Assembly (NCBI GenBank): GCA_029781795.1
Contig: JAKOWB010000194.1
Location: 1 to 64,000, forward strand
Length of the DNA: 64,000 bases
Source: Pseudomonadota bacterium
GTDB lineage: Bacteria; Pseudomonadota; Alphaproteobacteria; Kiloniellales; JACOMY01
Direction of reading: 5' to 3'
Below are positions 418 to 12,700 of this stretch, piece by piece. The position numbers were made by a program, and so were the translations under genes. A model generated the notes under the pieces. It did not search any database. It was given only the letters and a program-made list of their open reading frames with translations, and had not been told where the DNA came from. Each line of letters begins with the position of its first letter. Position 1 is the stretch's first letter.

Positions 418-975
418 TCAGAGCGCGAAGCGCCGCCTGATCGCCTCGGCCGCCTGGTCGGGCGACAGGCGACTGGTGTCGACCTCCAGGTCGTAGGTCA
501 CGCCCTGGTGGACACGGGCGAACTGCCAGCGGGCCAGGCCGAGCGCCCGGTCGCCACGCTGGCGCTCGCGCGCCTCCAGCACCTGGAGCGGGGCCATCAC
601 GGCGATCCAGTGAACCGTGAAGGGCGCGAGGACGGCGCGGTAGTCCGCGGCGGCCTCGTCCAGCAGGACCTCGTCCAGGATGATGTCGTTGCCGGCAGCC
701 GCCAGCGCCGCAACCGCGCGCCGCATGCCGGTCATCAGGCGCCGGCCAGTCGGCCCCTCCTGGATGGCGAGACTGGGCCGGCCGTCGTCTTCGCCGGGCA
801 CCAGGCGATAGCCCTCGTCATGGTCCCACAGCGCCGGCGGCAGCATCGCCAGGAAGGCATCCATCGCGACGTTGAGGAAAGGCGTCGCGGTGATCGCCTG
901 CAGCGCCCTGGCGATCGACGACTTGCCGGCGCTGCCGACGCCGTTCAGCAGGACGATGCGCGCCGGCTGGCTCAC
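418..975 (-). CDS. Chloramphenicol phosphotransferase-like kinase
   Basis: A 185-residue P-loop protein. The Walker A motif GVGSAGKSS is at residues 12-20. An aspartate at about residue 39 in VAMDAF fits the catalytic acid position of chloramphenicol 3-O-phosphotransferase. Length and overall pattern fit that family, which transfers phosphate from ATP to a small-molecule hydroxyl. Many chromosomal members have no known link to resistance, so the substrate is open. Its ATG overlaps the stop of the upstream TauD-like dioxygenase by 4 bp (ATGA), so the two are probably translationally coupled and act on related substrates. Confidence 0.8.
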   Translation of the reverse strand: MSQPARIVLLNGVGSAGKSSIARALQAITATPFLNVAMDAFLAMLPPALWDHDEGYRLVPGEDDGRPSLAIQEGPTGRRLMTGMRRAVAALAAAGNDIILDEVLLDEAAADYRAVLAPFTVHWIAVMAPLQVLEARERQRGDRALGLARWQFARVHQGVTYDLEVDTSRLSPDQAAEAIRRRFAL

Positions 976-2021
976 GGCGCCACGGCAATGCCGCCGCGCA
1001 GCGCGCCGGCGGCGACGTTGCCCCAGAGGACGGCGTGGTCCTCGGGCAGGGCGCGGCTGTTCGGCATGGCCAGCCAGACGCGATAGAGCCGGCGCACCTT
1101 CGCCTGCGCCGGATCGTTCTGGAAGGCCTCGCGCGCGTGATAGACGACGTGGTTGTTGACGAACTGCAGGTCGCCCGGCGCCAGCGTCATGCGATAGCAG
1201 AGCGCCTCGGCCACCGCGTGCAGCAGGTCCAGCGCCTCGAGCTGCGCGGCGCTGAGGCGCGGCGCGCCGGGCAGCATCTGCGCCGCCTCGATGAAGGTGC
1301 GCGAGTAGTGGCTGGTGAAGCGCCCGTCGCGCAGGCCGAAGACGGGCAGCAGGTAGAAGAGCTCCTCGCCGCCCTTCTCCTCGCCCAGGCGGCTGCGCGG
1401 GTAGGGCTGGTACAGCAGCTCGAGCAGGTCCGGCCGGCGCCGCAGGATCTCGTTGTGCACCGCCAGGGTCGAGACCACCTTGCTGAGGCCGCCCTCGCTC
1501 GCCTGCCCGGCGCAGAGCAGGCCCACGACGTCGGTGCGGTCGGTGTGGAAGCGCAGCGGCCCGGTCGAGACCGCGCGGCTGTAGCTGCCGAGGAAGGTGC
1601 CGTTCGCGGTTTCCAGCTTGCCGTGGATCGCCGGGGCGGCGGCGCCCTCGTCCTGGATAATCTTCATGCGCAGCCCGGCATTGCTCTGCGATACCGGCGT
1701 GCCCAACAACTGGCCCAGGCCGTACCAGAGGCGCCTGAGGTCGGCGTCGTCGTAGCGCTCGACCGGCAGGCCGCTGATCAGGGCGACGCCGCGCCCGTGC
1801 TCCAGGCCCTCGGCGACGCGGTCGAAGAGGGCCCGCACCGAAGGGGCGCGGAAGTCGCCCGGACCGATCTCCTCCCAGCCCAGGCCGCGGCGCTTGACCT
1901 CTTGCAGCGCCGCGTGAATCTCCGCCGTCATCGCCGGAGTCAGGCGGTAGCGCCAGTCGCTGGCCTCCGCCAGTTCCGCCCCGGTCCAGAGGCTGGCGCC
2001 TTCGAGCGCTTGACGCGGCAT
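972..2021 (-). CDS. TauD/TfdA family Fe(II)/2-oxoglutarate dioxygenase
   Basis: Predicted 349-residue non-haem iron dioxygenase of the TauD/TfdA type. The iron-binding HxD is in FHTDRTD (H159, D161). A distal histidine in NNHVVYHAR and a 2-oxoglutarate-binding arginine in RRLYRVW lie near residue 300. An in-frame ATG exists 15 bp upstream (2036). The ATG at 2021 is preferred because GGGGAGAG lies about 6 bp before it, while the upstream one has no Shine-Dalgarno sequence. It is coupled by a 4-bp overlap to a chloramphenicol phosphotransferase-like gene. The substrate is unknown; family members hydroxylate taurine, aryloxyacetates, amino acids or natural-product intermediates. Confidence 0.85.
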   Translation of the reverse strand: MPRQALEGASLWTGAELAEASDWRYRLTPAMTAEIHAALQEVKRRGLGWEEIGPGDFRAPSVRALFDRVAEGLEHGRGVALISGLPVERYDDADLRRLWYGLGQLLGTPVSQSNAGLRMKIIQDEGAAAPAIHGKLETANGTFLGSYSRAVSTGPLRFHTDRTDVVGLLCAGQASEGGLSKVVSTLAVHNEILRRRPDLLELLYQPYPRSRLGEEKGGEELFYLLPVFGLRDGRFTSHYSRTFIEAAQMLPGAPRLSAAQLEALDLLHAVAEALCYRMTLAPGDLQFVNNHVVYHAREAFQNDPAQAKVRRLYRVWLAMPNSRALPEDHAVLWGNVAAGALRGGIAVAP

Positions 2022-2143
2022 CGGCTCTCTCCCCATGTCTAGTGGATCGGACGCTAGGAGCGCCCGGCCGGCCCGGTCAAGGCGACCCTGCCATGCGACA
2101 GGCGGCGGGGGAATGCGGACCCCGGTCGCGGCGTAGAATCGGC

Positions 2144-2765: not shown

Positions 2766-3848
2766 CTAGTCGAAGGCAACCTGCGCTACCGGCGGCAGGT
2801 GCCCGGCGAGCTGCGTCCAGGCCTCGCCGCCGTCCTCGCTGATCCAGAGATTGCCGGTGGTGCTGCCCATGGCGAGGCGCCGGCCTGTGGCGTCGACGTC
2901 GAGCGCGTGGCGATAGACCAGGTCGAAGGCCTCGCGCTGCGGCAGTCCCTGGCCGAAGGCGCCGAAGCTCCGGCCGCCGTCGTCGCTGCGCAGCACCACC
3001 AGGCGGCCGTCCACCGGCACGCGGCACTCGTCCTTCACCGCGGGCACGAACCAGGCCGTGTCAGGCTGGCTCGGATGCGCCGCCACGGCGAAGCCGAAGG
3101 CGGAGGGGGCCGGCGCTTCGATCTCGCGGAAGGTGGCGCCACGATCGTCGGAGACGAACATGCCATTGTGATGCTGGCACCAGATCCGGTCGGGCGCCGC
3201 GGCCGTCGCCGCGAGGCGATGCGGGTCCTGGCTCTCCGGTTTGAAGGCCAGGTCGGGCGGCAGGTAGGCGGCGCGCAGGCCCTGGCCACCCTGGCGCCAG
3301 GAGGCGCCGCCGTCATCGCTGAGCCAGGCGCCGCCGCAGGAGATGCCGAGGGTCAGCCGCCGCGAGTCGCGCGGGTCGACCAGGATCGAGTGGATGCCTG
3401 GCGCGTCATAGCCGCCACCGAACCACTGGGCGCGCTGCGGCACTGCCCAGAGCGGCTCGTTGAGCTGCCAGCTCTCGCCCCGGTCGGCGCTGCGGAACAG
3501 TGCGCCCGGAATCGTGCCGGCCCAGAGCACGCCCGGCTCGTCCGCGCCGCCGGCCGCCAGGGTCCAGATGAGTTGCACGCTTGGCGCCTTGGCGGCCTCG
3601 CCCGCCGGCGCCGGCGGGAAGGCCGGGGCGGGCAGCTCGCTCCAGGTCCCGCCGTCGTCGCTGCAGTGCAGCTTGACGCCGAAGTGGCCGAGGTTCAGCG
3701 CCGCGTAGAGCGTGCCGTCCCGTGCGTCGTGCAGCAGCGCGCTGACCGGCTGGCCCAGGAAGGCCGGCGCCTCCAGCTGCCAGCCGTCGGCGTGACGGCG
3801 CGCGCAGAAGAGGCCCTTGCGGGTGGCGATGCGCAGCGTGTCGGACAT
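2766..3848 (-). CDS. BNR/Asp-box beta-propeller protein (sialidase-like fold)
   Basis: A 360-residue protein built of repeats. Six Asp-box motifs of the S-x-D-x-G-x-[ST]-[WF] type are visible: SDDGGTW, SADRGESW, SDDGGASW, SDDRGATF, SDDGGRSF and SEDGGEAW. This indicates a BNR beta-propeller like exo-alpha-sialidases and VPS10-type proteins. No signal peptide is apparent, so it is probably cytoplasmic. The sialidase arginine triad was not identified, so enzymatic activity should not be assumed. It follows a MoaD/ThiS-like gene with only 5 bp between them, so the two form an operon. Confidence 0.75.
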   Translation of the reverse strand: MSDTLRIATRKGLFCARRHADGWQLEAPAFLGQPVSALLHDARDGTLYAALNLGHFGVKLHCSDDGGTWSELPAPAFPPAPAGEAAKAPSVQLIWTLAAGGADEPGVLWAGTIPGALFRSADRGESWQLNEPLWAVPQRAQWFGGGYDAPGIHSILVDPRDSRRLTLGISCGGAWLSDDGGASWRQGGQGLRAAYLPPDLAFKPESQDPHRLAATAAAPDRIWCQHHNGMFVSDDRGATFREIEAPAPSAFGFAVAAHPSQPDTAWFVPAVKDECRVPVDGRLVVLRSDDGGRSFGAFGQGLPQREAFDLVYRHALDVDATGRRLAMGSTTGNLWISEDGGEAWTQLAGHLPPVAQVAFD

Positions 3849-3853
3849 GGGAC

Positions 3854-4123
3854 CTAGCCTCCCGAGAGCGCCTGGAACACGAAGACCTCGTCGTCCGCCG
3901 CCAGCGGGTCGCTGAGCGTCACGCGGTCAGCGAGTGGCTTGTCGTTGACGTAGATGATGACGTGGCGGCGCAGCCTGCCTTGCTCGTCCAGGATGTAGGA
4001 GCGCAGGCGCGGATTCTCGGCGAAGACGCCGTCCAGCGCCTGGCGCAGCGTGCCGCCGGCATGCGGCCGGGGCGGGCAAGCAAGGTGGCGCTGCAGATTG
4101 GCGGTGAAGCGGACCTGACCCAT
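3854..4123 (-). CDS. MoaD/ThiS-family ubiquitin-like small protein
   Basis: An 89-residue protein ending in LSGG. The C-terminal Gly-Gly is the hallmark of the MoaD/ThiS sulfur-carrier family, in which it is adenylated and thiocarboxylated. The internal pattern (RSYILDEQGRLRRHV, VNDKPL, DEVFVFQALSGG) fits the beta-grasp fold. No moaE, thiG, thiF or moeB is nearby; thiE and thiM are over 57 kb away and unlinked. The downstream partner is a six-Asp-box propeller, so it may serve an unknown pathway rather than molybdopterin or thiamine synthesis. Confidence 0.75.
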   Translation of the reverse strand: MGQVRFTANLQRHLACPPRPHAGGTLRQALDGVFAENPRLRSYILDEQGRLRRHVIIYVNDKPLADRVTLSDPLAADDEVFVFQALSGG

Positions 4124-4200: not shown

Positions 4201-6141
4201 TCAGGCCCGTGCCGGCTGGTCCAGGCGCTCTTCCAGGCCGAGGGCGGTCAGCGCCGTGGCGACGATGGACTTGGCGTCCAGGCCGGCCTGCTCGATCTGC
4301 TTCTTCGGCGAATCGTGGTCGATGAAGATGTCGGGCAGGGTCATGGGCCGGAAGCGCAGGCCGCGGTCGAACACGCCATGCTTGGCGAGGCAGGTCATGA
4401 CCAGGGTGGCGAAACCGCCGGTCGAGCCTTCCTCGATGGTGATCAGCACCTCGTGCTCGCGCGCCAGGCGCAGGACCAGGTCCTCGTCCAGCGGCTTGGC
4501 GAAGCGCGCGTCGGCGACGGTGGTGGAGAGGCCGCGGGCGGCCAGTTCCTCGGCCGCCTTCAGGGCGTCCTGCAGGCGCACGCCGAGCGACAGCAGGGCG
4601 ATCTTGCTGCCTTCGCGCAGCACGCGGCCCTTGCCGATCTCCAGCACGCTGCCCCTGGCCGGCAGCTCCAGGCCCAGGCCCTCGCCGCGCGGGAAGCGCA
4701 CGGCGGTCGGCGCGTCGTCCACCGCGACCTGCGTCGCGGTCATGTGCATCAGCTCGACCTCGTCGGCCGGCGCCATGATGACCATGTTCGGGATGCAGCC
4801 GAGATAGGCCAGGTCGTAGCTGCCCTGGTGCGTCACGCCGTCGGCGCCGACCATGCCGGCGCGGTCCATCGAGAAGCGCACCGGCAGGTTCTGGATGGCG
4901 ACGTCGTGCACCACCTGGTCGTAGGCGCGCTGCAGGAAGGTCGAGTAGATCGCGGCGAAGGGCTTGTAGCCCTCGCAGGCCAGACCGGCGCAGAAGGTCA
5001 CGGCATGCTGCTCGGCGATGCCGACGTCGAACATGCGGTCGGGGAAGATCTCGGCGAACTTGTGCAAGGACGTGCCGGTCGGCATGGCGGCGGTGACCGC
5101 CACCACCTTGGGGTCGGCCTTGGCCTCGGCGATCAGCGCGCGGGCGAAGACGTCCTGGTAGTTCGGCGCCTTCGGCGGCGACTTGTGCTGCTGGCCGGTG
5201 ATGACGTCGAACTTCACCACGCCGTGGTACTTGTCGGCGGCGGCCTCGGCCGGGCCGTAGCCCTTGCCCTTCTTGGTCACGCAGTGGATCAGCACCGGGC
5301 CGTCCCACTCGCCGTCGCGCACGTTCTTCAGCACCGGCAGCAGGTGGTCCAGGTTGTGGCCGTCGATCGGGCCGACGTAGAAGAAGCCCAGCTCCTCGAA
5401 CAGCGTGCCGCCGGTCAGCATGCCGCGGGCGTACTCTTCGGCCCGCTTGGCCGCGCGCTCGAGCGGCTTGGGAAACTTCTTGGCAACCTCCTTGGCCAGG
5501 TGCCGCACCGACTGCACCGGCTTGGAGGAGATCAGCCGCGCGAGATAGGCGCTCATGGCGCCGACCGGCGGGGCGATCGACATGTCGTTGTCGTTCAGGA
5601 TGACGATCAGGCGCGACTTCATCGCGCCGGCGTTGTTCATCGCCTCGTAGGCCATGCCGGCCGACATGGCGCCGTCGCCGATCACCGCGATGACGTGGTT
5701 GTCGCGCTTGTCGTAGTCGCGCGCCACGGCGAAGCCGAGGCCGGCGGAGATCGAGGTCGAGGAGTGCGCGGCGCCGAAGGGGTCGTAGACGCTCTCCTTG
5801 CGGCTGGTGAAGCCGGAGAGGCCGCCGCCCTGGCGGATGGTGCGCATCTGGTCGCGCCGTCCGGTCAGGATCTTGTGCGGATAGCACTGGTGCGACACGT
5901 CCCAGATCAGGATGTCGTCCGGCGTGTTGAAGACATAGTGCAGCGCCGCCGTCAGCTCGACCACGCCGAGGCCCGCGCCCAGGTGTCCGCCGGTCATCGA
6001 TACCTGGTCGATCAGGTCGGTGCGCAACTCGTCGGCAAGCTGCCGGAGATCGCTCTCCTTCAGCTTGCGAAGGTCGGCGGGCACCTTCACCTGGTCGAGC
6101 AGGGGGGTCTTGGAAGCGCTGTTGTGTCCGATCTGATTCAC
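4201..6141 (-). CDS. dxs: 1-deoxy-D-xylulose-5-phosphate synthase
   Basis: A 646-residue thiamine-diphosphate enzyme. It condenses pyruvate and glyceraldehyde 3-phosphate to 1-deoxy-D-xylulose 5-phosphate, the first step of the MEP isoprenoid pathway and also a precursor for thiamine and pyridoxal. Visible features are [16 protein letters not shown] near the N-terminus, the cofactor-binding [15 protein letters not shown], and the C-terminal transketolase domains with [17 protein letters not shown]. The GTG at 6141 is chosen: GGAAAGG lies 7 bp before it, and the protein then begins just before the conserved TPLLDQV. A longer reading frame upstream overlaps the ispA terminus and looks spurious. 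It ends the deacetylase-xseB-ispA-dxs block. Confidence 0.97.
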
Positions 6142-6253
6142 TTGACTACCTTTCCGGACCCCTGCGGGTCCGTGGTCCTTGATCCCCTGTCCCCGGTGAG
6201 CCTGGGACCCCGCCCCGAGTGGGGTCCATCCGGATGGCGGCGCCCTGGCACCC

Positions 6254-7144
6254 TCAGGAGCGACGCTCGACGACGAAGATGGCCGTCTGGCGCAGAAGGT
6301 CGGCCCTTTCCTTGAAAGAATCAAGTCGTTGCTGCGCCGCAGCAACCAGGGTTTCAGCCTGGCGTCGCGCCCCGGCAACACCCAGCAACTTCACGAACGT
6401 CGCCTTGTCGTTGCCGGCGTCGGCCCCGGCCGGCTTGCCCAGCTGCTCGGTGGTGCCCTCGACGTCCAAAAGGTCGTCGGCGATCTGGAAGGCCAGGCCC
6501 AGGTCCCGGGCATAGCCGGCCAGGGCCTGGTGCTGCGCCGGGCTGGCGCCGCCCAGGATGGCCCCGGCGACGCAGGCATGCTCGATCAGGGCGCCGGTCT
6601 TAAGCGCCTGCAACTCCTTGATTCCTTCAAGATCCAGGCCGTTGCGCTCGGGCGAGAGGTCGATCATCTGCCCGCCCACCATGCCGGCGGGCCCGGCGCC
6701 CTGGGCCAAGGCGGCGACCAGGGCGATGCGGACGGCCGGGTCGGGGTGGGTCTCGGGCTCGGCCAGCACGGCGAAGGCCTCGGTCAGCAGGCCGTCGCCG
6801 GCCAGGATCGCGGTGGCGTCGTCAAAGGCCTTGTGAACCGTAGGCTTGCCGCGGCGCAGGTCGGCGTTGTCCATGGCCGGCAGGTCGTCGTGGATCAGCG
6901 AGTAGCAGTGCACCATTTCCAGCGCCACGGCGGCGTTGAGGGCACGCTGCTCGGGCACGTCGAACAGGCGGGCCGACTCGATCACCAGGAAGGGACGCAG
7001 GCGCTTGCCGCCGTTGAGGGCGCCGTGGCGCATCGCCTCGATCACCCGGCCGCGCGGGCCGGCGGTGGTAGCCAGGCGGCGGTCCAGCTCGCGCGTGACC
7101 TGATCGGCCGTGGCGGCCAGCGCCGCTTCCAGGGTCCGGGACAT
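6254..7144 (-). CDS. ispA: Farnesyl diphosphate synthase (polyprenyl synthetase)
   Basis: A 296-residue short-chain polyprenyl synthase. It adds isopentenyl diphosphate to dimethylallyl and geranyl diphosphate. The first aspartate-rich motif is [17 protein letters not shown] and the second is DDLLDVEG, with GGKRLRP near the N-terminus. The ATG at 7144 gives a normal family length and lies 8 bp after the xseB stop; the longer frame would run through xseB. It sits between xseB and dxs, a common alphaproteobacterial arrangement that joins precursor supply with chain elongation. Confidence 0.95.
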
Positions 7145-7152
7145 GGGCTGCC

Positions 7153-7398
7153 TCAGGCCTGCTCGAAGGGCTCGCTGGAGACGCCCTTGGCGCCGGCCGA
7201 GACGCGCTCGATCTTGAGCTGCGCTTCCTTCAGCTTGGCCTCGCAATGGGCCTTGAGCTGCGCCCCGCGCTCATAGGCGGCGATGGCCTCGTCCAGCTTG
7301 GCCTGGCCGCTTTCCAGGCTCTCGACGATGCGCTTCAGCTCCTCCAGCGCCTGCTCGAAGGAGAGGCTGTCGACGGGGGCGGGTGTCTTCGGGCTCAT
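7153..7398 (-). CDS. xseB: Exodeoxyribonuclease VII small subunit
   Basis: An 81-residue helical protein with the family pattern SFEQALEELKRIVESLESG followed by LDEAIAAYERG. It is the small subunit of exonuclease VII, which with the large subunit XseA degrades single-stranded DNA. xseA is not in the window. The ATG at 7398 gives the normal length. It is followed after 8 bp by ispA and preceded by the deacetylase gene, so it is probably cotranscribed with both. Confidence 0.93.
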   Translation of the reverse strand: MSPKTPAPVDSLSFEQALEELKRIVESLESGQAKLDEAIAAYERGAQLKAHCEAKLKEAQLKIERVSAGAKGVSSEPFEQA

Positions 7399-7470
7399 GG
7401 GCGGAACCCTATAGGCCAAGGGGGCCGGTGGTCGCAACCCGCGGCTGCCGCCCTGGGCGCCTGAAGGGCA

Positions 7471-8406
7471 TCACAGATCCTCCATCAGCGCCTGGACGTG
7501 GGCGGCGGCCGACGCGCCCAGTGCGTCGAGGTGGTAGCCGCCCTCCAGGGTCGAGACCAGGCGCCCGCCGCAGTGGCGCCGGGCCAGCCGGCGCAGCTCC
7601 AGCGTGATCCAGTGGTAGTCGGCCTCGACCAGTTCCAGGTTGGCCAGCGGGTCCTCGCGGTGGGCGTCGAAGCCGGCGGAAACCAGGATCAGCTCCGGCC
7701 TGAAGCGGTCGAGCGCGGGCAGCAGCGCGCCGCTCCAGGCGGCGCGGAAGTGCCCGCCCCCGGCACCGGGCGGCAGCGGGGCGTTGACGATCTGGCCGTG
7801 CGCGCCGCGCTCCTCGCTGGCGCCGCTGCCGGGATCGAGCGGCGACTGGTGCGAGGAGGCGAAGAAGGCCTCGCCGTCGTCCCAGAACAGCGCCTGCGAG
7901 CCGTTGCCGTGGTGCACGTCGAAATCGACCACGGCGATCCGCTTCAGGCCGTGCGCGGCGCGGGCGTGCAGTGCGCCGACGCCGACGTTGTTGAAGACGC
8001 AGAAGCCCATGGCGACCTCGGGCTCGGCGTGGTGGCCGGGCGGCCGCACGGCGCAGAAGGCGCTCGCCACTTCGCCGGCCATCACCGCGTCGACCCCGGC
8101 GATCACCGCGCCGGCAGCCCGCAGCGCCGCCTCGCCGGAGCCGGGGGAGAGGATCGTGTCGCCGTCGAGGCCGACATAGCCCGTCTCGGGCACCGCGGCC
8201 AGCGCGCGCTCGACGAAGGCCGCGGGGTGGGCCAGGGCCAGTTGCGCCGCCGTGGCGCGCGGCGCCTCGCGCCAGGCGAGGCCGGCAAAGTCGGCGTTGT
8301 CCAGCGCCTTCAGCACGGCCGCCAGGCGGGCCGGGCTTTCCGGATGCCAGTGGCCGGTGTCGTGGCGGGCGCAAGCCTCGTGGGTGATCAGCAGGGCAGG
8401 GGTCAA
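7471..8406 (-). CDS. Histone deacetylase / acetoin utilization (AcuC) superfamily protein
   Basis: A 311-residue zinc-dependent deacetylase-fold protein. Visible motifs are RPPGHHAEP (active-site His pair), DFDVHHGNG (zinc ligands) and SAGFDAHREDPLA. It probably deacetylates lysine or small acetylated amines. The start is a TTG at 8406, not the first ATG of the longer frame: GGAGG lies 8 bp upstream and the protein then starts at the family-conserved LLITHEACARHD. It is the first gene of the minus-strand block ending in dxs. The region to 8626 separates it from the divergent RND genes. Confidence 0.87.
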   Translation of the reverse strand: MTPALLITHEACARHDTGHWHPESPARLAAVLKALDNADFAGLAWREAPRATAAQLALAHPAAFVERALAAVPETGYVGLDGDTILSPGSGEAALRAAGAVIAGVDAVMAGEVASAFCAVRPPGHHAEPEVAMGFCVFNNVGVGALHARAAHGLKRIAVVDFDVHHGNGSQALFWDDGEAFFASSHQSPLDPGSGASEERGAHGQIVNAPLPPGAGGGHFRAAWSGALLPALDRFRPELILVSAGFDAHREDPLANLELVEADYHWITLELRRLARRHCGGRLVSTLEGGYHLDALGASAAAHVQALMEDL

Positions 8407-8555
8407 GGCGTCGTCCTCCAGGTCTTGCCCCTTATAGCCCGCCTGACACGCCGACGGGACCGCGGGAGTCCGCGTCCTGTCCTGGGACCTATGCTGCATC
8501 GCCGCATGACAAGCCCACCCGCGAGGCCCTAGCCTGCTGCGGCACAAAGTTTTTT

Positions 8556-8569
8556 CCCCGCGCGCGGGG
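8556..8569. promoter_or_regulatory. Perfect 14-bp palindrome, possible operator
   Basis: CCCCGCGCGCGGGG, preceded by six T on the plus strand, lies between the divergent deacetylase and RND adaptor genes, 57 bp before the adaptor start. The T-run is on the wrong side for a terminator in either direction, so an operator or promoter-proximal element is more likely. No local repressor gene is seen. Confidence 0.3.
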
Positions 8570-8626
8570 ATGCGGCGGCCGGCCCCGGCGTAAGGGGCTG
8601 GAGAGGCAAGGCGGCAAGGCGACCCC

Positions 8627-9742
8627 ATGTTGATGGCTGAAACGCGCGGCCAGGCGCTGCGGCGCATCCTGCTCCTGCTGGGGCTGGCGGCGCTGGGCCT
8701 CGGCGTCTGGTGGAGCCACGGCCGCTGGTGGGGCGATATCCCGGCGCAGGCGCAGGAGCCCGCCAAGGCTTCCGCCGCGCAGGCACCGCCCCCCCTGCCG
8801 GTCGAGGTCGCCCAAGCCAAGGAAGAAGCCGCCGCCGTCGAGATCAGGTCGGTCGGCACGCTGGAATCCGACGAGTCGGTGCAGATTGCCGCCGAGTTGC
8901 CTGGACGTATCGCCGAGATCCTGTTCGACGAGGGCCAGCAGGTCGCCGCCGGCCAGCTCCTGATCCGCCTGGACGACCAGCTCGCCCAGGTCGAGCTGAA
9001 GGACGCCGAAGCCAGCCTGGATCTGGCCAAGGCCAACTACGAGCGCGCCGCCAAGCTGGCGCAGAGCGGCAGCGGCACGCAGCGCACCTTGGACGAGGCA
9101 CAGACCGAGCTGGCTCGCGCCGAGGCCGCGGTCGACCTGATCCGCGTGCGGTTGGACAAGCTCTCGCTCACCGCGCCCTTCGACGGCGTGGTCGGCATCC
9201 GCAAGGTCTCGCTCGGCGCCTACATCACCGCCGGGCAGGAGCTGGTGAACCTCGAGAAGATCGACCGCCTGAAGGTCAGCTTCAAGGTGCCCGAGCTCTT
9301 CCTCGCTCAGATCAAGGTCGGCCAGGCGGTGATCGTGAAGCTGGACGCCCTGCCGGGCCGCAGCTTCGAGGCGCGCATCTACACCATCGACCCGCTGCTC
9401 GACATCAATGGCCGCGCGCTCAACGTCCGCGCCCTGCTGCCCAATCCCGACGGCTTCCTGCGTCCCGGCCTCTTCGCCCGCATCACCGTCCAGGTCGACG
9501 AGTCGCGCCGCGTGGTGATGGTGCCCGAGGAGGCCATCGTGCCGCGCGACAAGGATCACCTGGTCTTCCGCGTCGTCGAGGGCCACGCCCAGCGCGTGGT
9601 TGTTGAACTCGGCGCCCGCCGCGCCGGCCGGGTCGAGGTGCTGAGCGGCCTCAAGGACGGCGACGTGGTGGTGACCGCCGGACAGAACCGCCTGCGCGAG
9701 GGCTCGCCGGTCGAGGTGCTCGCCGGCGGCACGGCGAACTAG
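8627..9742 (+). CDS. RND efflux periplasmic adaptor subunit (MFP)
   Basis: A 371-residue membrane-fusion protein. The N-terminus has a single hydrophobic anchor (ILLLLGLAALGLGVWW). A biotinyl-lipoyl-like segment (GRIAEILFDEGQQVAAGQLLIRLDD) leads into a helical hairpin, then the second lipoyl half (LTAPFDGVVGIRKVSLGAYITAGQ) and beta-barrel and proximal domains. It bridges the inner-membrane pump and an outer-membrane channel. The pump gene starts 15 bp downstream. A second ATG two codons in is an alternative start. No outer-membrane factor gene is present, so the pair must borrow one. Export of toxic compounds is the usual role; substrate unknown. Confidence 0.93.
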   Translation: MLMAETRGQALRRILLLLGLAALGLGVWWSHGRWWGDIPAQAQEPAKASAAQAPPPLPVEVAQAKEEAAAVEIRSVGTLESDESVQIAAELPGRIAEILFDEGQQVAAGQLLIRLDDQLAQVELKDAEASLDLAKANYERAAKLAQSGSGTQRTLDEAQTELARAEAAVDLIRVRLDKLSLTAPFDGVVGIRKVSLGAYITAGQELVNLEKIDRLKVSFKVPELFLAQIKVGQAVIVKLDALPGRSFEARIYTIDPLLDINGRALNVRALLPNPDGFLRPGLFARITVQVDESRRVVMVPEEAIVPRDKDHLVFRVVEGHAQRVVVELGARRAGRVEVLSGLKDGDVVVTAGQNRLREGSPVEVLAGGTAN

Positions 9743-9757
9743 GCGGGGAAGCGGCGC

Positions 9758-12700
9758 ATGCGTCTGCCCGAGATCTGCATCCGCCGCCCGGTCTTCGCCT
9801 CGGTGCTGAGCCTCGTCCTGCTGCTGGTCGGCATGATCTCCTATGGCCGCCTGACGGTGCGCGAGTATCCACGCATCGACGAGCCGGTGATCTCCGTCTC
9901 CACCAACTATCCCGGTGCCTCGGCCACCATCATCGAGAGCCAGGTGACGCAGATCCTCGAGGGCTCGATCGCCGGCATCGAGGGCATCGACGTGCTGGAG
10001 TCGATCAGCCGTTCGGAATCCAGCCGCATTACCGTCCGCTTCAACTTGAGCATCGATCCCGACGTCGCCGCCAGCGACGTGCGCGACCGCGTCAGCCGCG
10101 TGCGCAGCCGCCTGCCGGACGAGATCGACGAGCCCACCATCGCCAAGGTGGAGGCCGATGCCCAGGCCGTCATCTACCTGACCTTCGCCGCCGAGGGCTA
10201 TTCCGCGCTGGAGCTCACCGACTACGTCGACCGCTACGTCGTCGACCGGCTGAAGAACCTGACCGGCGTCGCCGACGTGGTGATCTATGGCGAGCGGCGC
10301 TATGCCATGCGCATCTGGATCGACCGCGAGCGCCTGGCGGCCTATGACCTGACGGTGCAGGACCTGGAGGAGGCGCTGCGCCAGCAGAACGTCGAGGTCC
10401 CCTCGGGCCGCATCGAGAGCCAGACGCGGGAGTTCTCGGTGCTCTCGCGCACCGGGCTGGAGACGGTCCAGCAGTTCGAGAACATCGTCCTCAAGTCGGT
10501 CGAGGGCTTCCCGGTCACGCTGAAGGACGTGGCGCGGGTCGAGCTCGGCGCCGCCAACTCGCGGCGCGAGGCGCGCTACAACGGCAAGCCCACCATCACG
10601 GTCGGCATCATCAAGCAGGCCGTCGCCAACCCGCTGGACGTGTCGAACGCCCTGCGCGCCGACCTGCCGGCGATCAACGAATCGCTGCCCAAGGGCATGA
10701 TCGCCGAGATCGGCACCGACAGCGCCGTCTTCATCGACCGCTCGATCAAGGCCGTCTACACCACGATCGCCGAGGCCGTGATCCTGGTGGTCCTGGTCAT
10801 CCTCTTCTTCCTGCGCTCGCTGCGCGCCTCGCTGATCCCGGTCGTCACCATCCCGATCTCGATGATCGCCACCTGCACGCTGATGTACGTGCTGGGCTTC
10901 TCGATCAACACGCTGACCTTGCTGGCCATGGTGCTGGCCATCGGCCTGGTGGTCGACGACGCCATTGTCGTGCTGGAGAACATCCACCGCCATATCGAGC
11001 GCGGGCAGAAGCCCTTCGTCGCCTCGATCCTCGGCATCCGCGAGATCGGTTTCGCCGTGGTGGCCATGAGCCTGACCCTGGCCGCGGTCTATGCGCCGGT
11101 CGCCTTCACGCCGGGGCGCACCGGGCGCCTCTTCATCGAGTTCGCGCTGACCCTTGCCTGCGCCGTGCTGGTCTCCGGCTTCGTCGCCCTGACGCTGACG
11201 CCGATGATGTGCTCCAAGCTGCTGAAGCACCACGAGCATCACGGACTGGTGTTCCGCCTGCTGGAACGCGGCTTCAACGCGGTGGAGGCCGGTTACAAGC
11301 GGCTGCTCGCCGGCACGCTGCGGCTGCGCCCGCTGGTGGTGCTGGTCGCGCTTGGCGTCGCCGGCGCCAGCGCCTACTTCTACCCGCTCCTCCCGCAGGA
11401 GCTGTCGCCGGTCGAGGACCGCGGCGAGGTCATGATCTTCGCCAGCGCGCCCGAGGGCTCGACGCTGGCCTATACCAACAACCAGGCTGCGAAGATCGAG
11501 GCGCTGGTGGCGCCGATCGCCGACAAGCGCGCCTTCCTGCTGATCGTCGGCTTCCCCGAGGTCACCGACGTGCGCTCCTTCCTCAGGCTGAAGGACTGGG
11601 ACGAGCGCGATACCAAGCAGCAGAGCATCGTCAACGCGCTGACGCCGCAGTTGAAGCGCATCCCCGGGCTCTCGGTCTCCGCCGTCAATCCGCCTTCGCT
11701 CGGCCAGAGCCGCGGCTCGCGGCCGGTGGAGTTCGTCATCCAGACCTCGGGCACCTACGAGCAGCTGCAGGGCTACGTGCAGGCGGTGATGGACAGGGTC
11801 GCCGACTATCCGGGACTGGTGAACCTGGACAGCGACCTGAAGCTGAACAAGCCCGAGCTGCGCATCGAGCTGGACCGCGCCCGCGTGGCCGACCTCGGCC
11901 TCGACGTCTCGGTCATCGGCCGCACGCTGGAGACGCTGCTGGGCAGCCGCCAGGTCACCCGCTTCGAGCAGAACGGCGAGCAGTACGACGTGCTGCTGCA
12001 GCTGGCCGATGCCGACCGCACCTCGCCCGAGGTGCTGGACACCATCTTCCTGCGCGCGCCCGACGGGCAGATGGTGCAGCTCTCCAACGTGGTGAAGATC
12101 CGCGAGACCGTGGCGCCGCGCGACCTGCGCCGCTTCAACCAGCTCCGCGCCGCGACCCTCAGCGCAACCCTGGCCGAGGGCTATTCGCTGGGCCAGGCGC
12201 TGGACACGCTGGAAGCCGCCGCCAGGGAGGTCCTGCCGCAGGGCGTGCTGATCGACTTCAAGGGCCAGAGCCGCGAGTTCCGCACCTCGAGCGCCAGCCT
12301 CGGCCTGGTCTTCGGCCTGGCGCTCTGCTTCATCTTCCTGGTACTGGCGGCGCAGTTCGAAAGCTATACCGACCCCATCATCATCCTGCTGACCGTGCCC
12401 TTCTCGATCACCGGCGCTCTGGCGGCGTTGCACTACGTCGGCGGCACCTTGAACGTCTATTCGCAGATCGGCCTGGTGACGCTGATCGGCCTCATCACCA
12501 AGCACGGCATCCTGATCGTTGAGTTCGCCAACCAGAAGCGCGTGCAGGGCCTGGACCGGCGCAAGGCGGTGATCGAGGCCGCGGCGCAGCGCCTGCGACC
12601 GATCCTGATGACCACCGGCGCGATGGTACTGGGCGCCGTGCCACTGGCGCTGGCCGAGGGCGCCGGCGCCGAGAGCCGACAGCAGATCGGCTGGGTCATC

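Follow-up and report, generated by a model that had tools for sequence, protein, structure and literature searches.

A ThiS/MoaD-type small protein and a 3b7f-family Asp-box propeller encoded as a two-gene unit in bacteria

Carriers of the ubiquitin-like beta-grasp fold act with an acceptor enzyme, as in the pairs ThiS-ThiG, MoaD-MoaE and CysO-CysM. CysO, which has been solved with CysM (3dwg) and with BexX (4n6e), is the described carrier most similar to the small protein reported here; it gives the best profile and fold matches, functions with an acceptor enzyme and ends in Gly-Gly. Unlike CysO, the small protein is partnered by a propeller and not by a PLP or other known acceptor enzyme, and it carries R-x-H at positions 52-54, where the solved CysO proteins have H-x-F. 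The archaeal modifier SAMP1 belongs to the same beta-grasp family and shares the Gly-Gly end, although the small protein scores under its equivalog cut-off. On the side of the propeller, Ycf48 (5ojp, 5oj3) is likewise an Asp-box propeller, comparable in size and with a peptide bound in the solved structure, but the identity is approximately 13-14% and Ycf48 is, by name, a photosystem II assembly factor; we know of no ubiquitin-like partner for it. The propeller itself belongs to the same family as the Asp-box propeller 3b7f (Reut_B4987, the YP_299179.1 family). The available text of PMC2716378 classes this family as functionally uncharacterised and seven-bladed, advises its top face as the place to look for a function and contains no mention of a pairing with a small protein. 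Within the open-licence literature, which excludes most subscription papers and all preprints, we found no paper connecting the two proteins; PMC1779556 and PMC2948915 make no mention of a propeller, sialidase, BNR or similar terms, and in PMC1949818 the word propeller appears once, in the abbreviation list only.

The gene pair in the window

The window, i.e. the whole stretch of 64,000 nucleotides that was analysed, encodes both proteins on the minus strand with the small gene leading (Table 1). An earlier note on this DNA had described a small protein ending in Gly-Gly followed after 5 bp by a propeller of 360 residues, and the coordinates and translations agree, the gap occupying positions 3849-3853. 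Five of the six Asp boxes that it counted in the propeller are canonical, while the sixth is a shortened one (SDDGGTW at residue 63). Its observation that no E1-like enzyme or moaE lies nearby extends to the entire window contig (C216), as all of these genes are located on other contigs. A ribosome-binding-like GGGAGG motif falls within the Ser-Gly-Gly codons of the small gene and the propeller ATG follows 9 nt downstream, so the motif may serve the propeller gene and the two proteins are probably translated together. The gene preceding the pair is dxs, 77 bp upstream.

Table 1. Features of the window at and around the gene pair.
Feature	Position	Strand	Remarks
Chloramphenicol phosphotransferase-like protein	418-975	-	PF07931, E 2e-44
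TauD-family dioxygenase	972-2036	-	PF02668, E 1.4e-29
Asp-box propeller, seven-bladed type, 3b7f family	2766-3848	-	360 aa; ORF and translation
Small ubiquitin-like (ThiS/MoaD-type) protein	3854-4123	-	89 aa, C-terminus ALSGG; ORF and translation
GGGAGG, ribosome-binding-like	3858-3863	-	Read from sequence
dxs and polyprenyl synthetase genes, with a small XseB-like gene by eye	4201-7437	-	Upstream of the pair

The small protein matches the Pfam ThiS family (PF02597; E 6.2e-6, 27.1 bits, cut-off 22.5) and is thereby a member of the ThiS/MoaD beta-grasp family. The nearest solved relatives of its profile are Amycolatopsis CysO with BexX (4n6e_B, 4.8e-13), followed by Mycobacterium CysO (3dwg_C, 2.9e-12), a Thermus MoaD-related protein and SAMP1 proteins. 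The same structures rank at the top for the model of a homologue from locus L122 (pLDDT 91.3, Z 13.6 to 4n6e_B), which has the beta-grasp fold. Against the SAMP1 model NF041918 the small protein reaches E 2e-10 and 41 bits, below the equivalog cut-off of 60.

Distribution of the pair and of lone propellers

The small protein was found in 26 of 190 genomes of the window's class, and in all 26 the propeller adjoins it, the small gene coming first in 16 and the propeller in 10 (L018-L027). When the same 190 genomes were searched for the propeller, 35 gave a strong match, near full length in 34, and the match in G075 is cut by the contig end. Five of these genomes (G039, G053, G159, G070, G004) have a divergent small gene beside the propeller, found by profile, and the class total is 31 of 35 propeller-positive genomes with an adjoining small gene. 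The remaining four are G122, G117, G157 (a distant, ordinary BNR protein) and G075, and none of them has a small-protein profile match anywhere in the genome. A scan of named genomes, with the small-protein alignment as the only query, matched 442 stretches, of which 397 were confirmed and the best 80 kept, many of them from metagenome-assembled genomes. The earlier note had proposed a conserved pair with a dedicated partner, to be dropped if few genomes kept it; both surveys strongly support the proposal, since the pair is kept in the 31 class genomes and, among the best 80 of the 397 confirmed loci, the neighbouring same-strand gene is the propeller in 78. The adjacency of the two genes is far beyond chance. 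As for the two unpaired loci, the contig of L129 stops about 60 bp past the small gene, and a propeller in that genome starts 93 bp from the end of the sequence examined, so this pair was probably split by assembly; the genome of L133 has both genes, on different contigs. The small gene of L133 lies between a lactate-racemase-like gene and MobA-/MoeA-type genes (6726-12247), about 2 kb from the latter.

By title, the best 80 loci belong to six phyla: Pseudomonadota, Planctomycetota, Acidobacteriota, Gemmatimonadota, Myxococcota and Verrucomicrobiota. Plasmid records add pairs in Actinomycetota (Nonomuraea, Arthrobacter), the pair is also present in Cupriavidus metallidurans CH34, and a Pseudomonas aeruginosa plasmid carries it annotated as 'MoaD/ThiS family protein' and 'exo-alpha-sialidase'. 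The intergenic gap has a median of 6 bp over the 77 loci measured and is at most 30 bp in 65 of them. Neighbour clustering of the best 80 loci returned no family besides the pair in more than 5 loci; the pair is a two-gene unit amid unrelated genes. A tree of 115 propellers separates the two gene orders, and the small-gene-first label in it requires 2 changes vs 20.4 for shuffled labels, the tree having been made by a quick method with 46 of 107 inner branches open and L041 mislabelled as paired.

Gly-Gly is the exact C-terminus of the small protein in 25 of the 26 class members and in 76 of the best 80 named-collection loci, and the latter count is unbiased because Gly-Gly was absent from the search pattern. 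One extra residue past Gly-Gly, or a longer tail, is found at L070, L073, L094, L115, L014 and L060, and the paired small protein of Nonomuraea has no terminal Gly-Gly. In the class set, which was found without a pattern, D46, R52 and H54 are near-universal with one exception at position 54 (L064); their invariance among the best 80 is by construction, because the scan pattern demanded these residues. The partner in Arthrobacter (L204) has the Gly-Gly end and F at position 54.

An E1 scores above the family cut-off in all 33 genomes searched (31 with the pair, together with the lone-propeller genomes G122 and G117). The co-occurrence with E1-like proteins, which the earlier note proposed to analyse, is present, but it is unspecific since E1 is common anyway; the lack of a local E1 is explained by its being encoded elsewhere in the genome. 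In the window genome the strong E1 match lies on contig C450 and a further match, weak and partial, on C103, while C426 carries moaE together with a separate moaD-like (ThiS-family) gene. The small gene of the window is not beside moaE, nor is it part of a bacterial ubiquitin-conjugation operon with linked E1, E2 or JAB-type protease genes, E1 being on other contigs. Four ThiS-family matches occur in the window genome, and 11 of the 12 pair genomes examined have two or more; judged by this gene content, the cell has other MoaD- or ThiS-type proteins besides this one. MoaE was detected in 32 of the 33 genomes, and is so common in the class (126/190) that its co-occurrence is uninformative about a link to Moco.

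The propeller also occurs alone. A survey of 398 genomes from the phylum gave propeller-family matches (E at most 1e-40) in 28, and by coordinates the small gene adjoins the propeller in 17. Of the eleven without an adjoining small gene, ten are in family f24 and one in f155, and no small gene is present at the nine of these loci that were inspected. The named plasmid relatives of the lone-type propeller are Rhodobacterales (Marivivens, Rhodobacter, Fuscovulum), so f24 probably belongs to this order. A Streptomyces plasmid propeller likewise has no partner gene beside it. Stand-alone propellers have no conserved neighbour, save for two near-relatives with one whole neighbourhood in common. On the plasmid of Rhodobacter sp. 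CZR27 (L152, 586-4113) the lone propeller lies beside the ergothioneine genes egtB and egtD, a neighbourhood absent from the two other named Rhodobacterales plasmids (L151, L180).

The propeller and candidate roles of the pair

The propeller matches Pfam BNR and Sortilin-Vps10, both above cut-off; it aligns with 3b7f_A by phmmer over residues 5-356 (6.5e-54), i.e. as a full-length member of the 3b7f/YP_299179.1 family, and 3b7f is also its top Foldseek match. GH33 sialidases are recognised by an Arg triad plus conserved catalytic residues (Asp, Glu and Tyr), and GH74 enzymes by two catalytic Asp in a tandem of two propellers. The propeller fits neither family: in 104 paired propellers every Asp, Glu and Tyr outside the Asp boxes stays below 95% conservation, and it is a single propeller of 360 aa with no conserved non-box Asp. 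PADLOC gave no defence match for either protein, and a viral-contig scan with the Nonomuraea propeller as query found no relative.

K11, H210, Q225, H227, R276 and R313 show no variation across the 104 paired propellers, a set that excludes L041 (the same protein as that of the unlinked L058, G122), the second copies of four genomes and the short rows L092, L142, L097, L114 and L065. The same six residues are kept in all 12 stand-alone relatives (eight from f24, three from named Rhodobacterales and that of G117), and also in the L194 and L058 propellers; the distant BNR proteins L066 and L153 keep only H210. Cys, like the three residue types above, does not reach at least 95% conservation outside the Asp boxes of the 104. 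The persistence of six polar residues without the partner points to an active or binding site belonging to the propeller itself, and the basic, carboxylate-free character of the invariant set suggests an anionic ligand and argues against a glycosidase. In the secondary structure of the L122 model all six are at strand ends or in loops; by the usual propeller layout they are expected on the top, in blades numbered here 5, 6, 7 and 1, where they may share one pocket. A single-chain model of the small protein and the propeller has a pTM of 0.84, which we do not count as evidence of docking; the estimate was approximately 0.74-0.77 if the small domain floats and 0.82-0.87 if it is placed with an error of 4-6 Å. 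The last block of the tail is no better ordered in this model than in the small protein alone (pLDDT 67 vs 75).

We tentatively favour the pair as a self-contained unit of a sulfur-carrier-type small protein, activated by a general E1, and the propeller as its dedicated acceptor enzyme, a reading that we place somewhat short of an even chance. By analogy with ThiS, MoaD and CysO, a general MoeB/ThiF-type E1 would adenylate the Gly-Gly end of the small protein, which would then be loaded with sulfur as a thiocarboxylate; the small protein would dock on the propeller, and the propeller would pass the sulfur to an anionic substrate held by the six invariant residues. A general E1 could perform the activation, since one is encoded in every genome searched, and the nearest solved relatives (4n6e_B, 3dwg_C) are sulfur carriers solved with their acceptor enzymes. 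Against this stand the single-chain model, whose tail is not ordered on the propeller, the small proteins with residues beyond Gly-Gly, the unspecific co-occurrence with E1 and MoaE, and the lone propellers in f24/f155, G122, G117 and the Streptomyces plasmid. The Nonomuraea partner without Gly-Gly and the alphaproteobacterial family that keeps the propeller alone further argue against a universal thiocarboxylate mechanism. The preferred reading is placed above one in which the propeller, with no sulfur chemistry of its own, serves as a receptor or chaperone and holds the small protein by its C-terminal tail. Structure titles record peptide complexes of fold relatives (a D1 peptide on Ycf48, neurotensin on sortilin, a C-terminal thermolysin fragment on DAIP) and a basic, carboxylate-free set would fit a carboxylate end; however, the six residues are invariant also where no partner gene adjoins, the Nonomuraea tail lacks Gly-Gly and the tail is not ordered in the model, and we regard such a receptor as unlikely. 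Less likely still is that the small protein is a modifier attached to other proteins, with the propeller selecting or presenting targets or removing the tag. The related SAMP1 proteins are archaeal modifiers whose profile and structures are among the best matches, and the terminal Gly-Gly is almost always present, but the SAMP1 score is well under its cut-off, no E2, protease or other recurrent family lies beside the pair in the best 80 loci, and the propeller has no invariant Cys.

Two other explanations fare worse. A role of the small protein as a spare MoaD or ThiS, in molybdopterin or thiamine synthesis, is very unlikely; its Pfam family is ThiS, MoaE is present in nearly all of the genomes searched and the unlinked small gene of L133 is near Moco-type genes, but in the window genome and others moaE has a separate moaD-like gene next to it, MoaE is common in the class and no link between the pair and Moco genes is conserved. 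The least probable reading, which we hold to be hardly credible, is that the propeller is a sialidase or other glycosidase with a functionally unrelated small gene next to it. Plasmid records do say 'exo-alpha-sialidase' or 'sialidase family protein' and Foldseek matches to GH74 enzymes exist; the propellers nevertheless lack conserved candidates for catalytic Asp, Glu or Tyr and the linkage of the genes speaks against mere adjoining. A further form of the favoured carrier and acceptor reading, possible but more doubtful than it, is that an Asp-box-propeller sulfur-transfer enzyme would move sulfur from its own ubiquitin-like carrier into an anionic metabolite; it would occur in scattered members of many phyla, and one alphaproteobacterial group would have a version that works without the carrier. 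For the 3b7f family, whose structure was released in 2007 with no function assigned, the results supply a partner and a small set of residues as candidates for the active site. Should the sulfur reading be true, the propeller would be a new acceptor fold for ubiquitin-like carrier systems and would hint at a novel sulfur compound. The pair is present in workable organisms, e.g. Cupriavidus metallidurans CH34, and is thus directly testable.

Small-protein relatives outside the pair

The small-protein profile gave matches in 93 genomes, and the propeller adjoins the match in 17. Among the other 76, 13 loci were inspected and none is of the pair type; nine are CysO-like, two are fused to an E1-like protein and two are others. 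A cysteine-synthase-type gene, as in the CysO pathway, is neither beside the window pair nor a recurrent neighbour in the best 80 loci, whereas f167 loci do have a CysO-like gene beside a cysteine-synthase-type gene. The CysO-like proteins at L181-L183, L185-L188 and L192 mostly have one extra residue after Gly-Gly, and cysteine-synthase-like, threonine-synthase-like and E1-like genes are seen near them by eye. At the fusion loci L190 (2661-4631) and L193 (3106-4998), of genomes G411 and G237, one long open frame includes a ubiquitin-like stretch containing an internal SGG, after which an E1-like start comes, and the N-terminus of the L190 frame is, by eye, apparently JAB-like.
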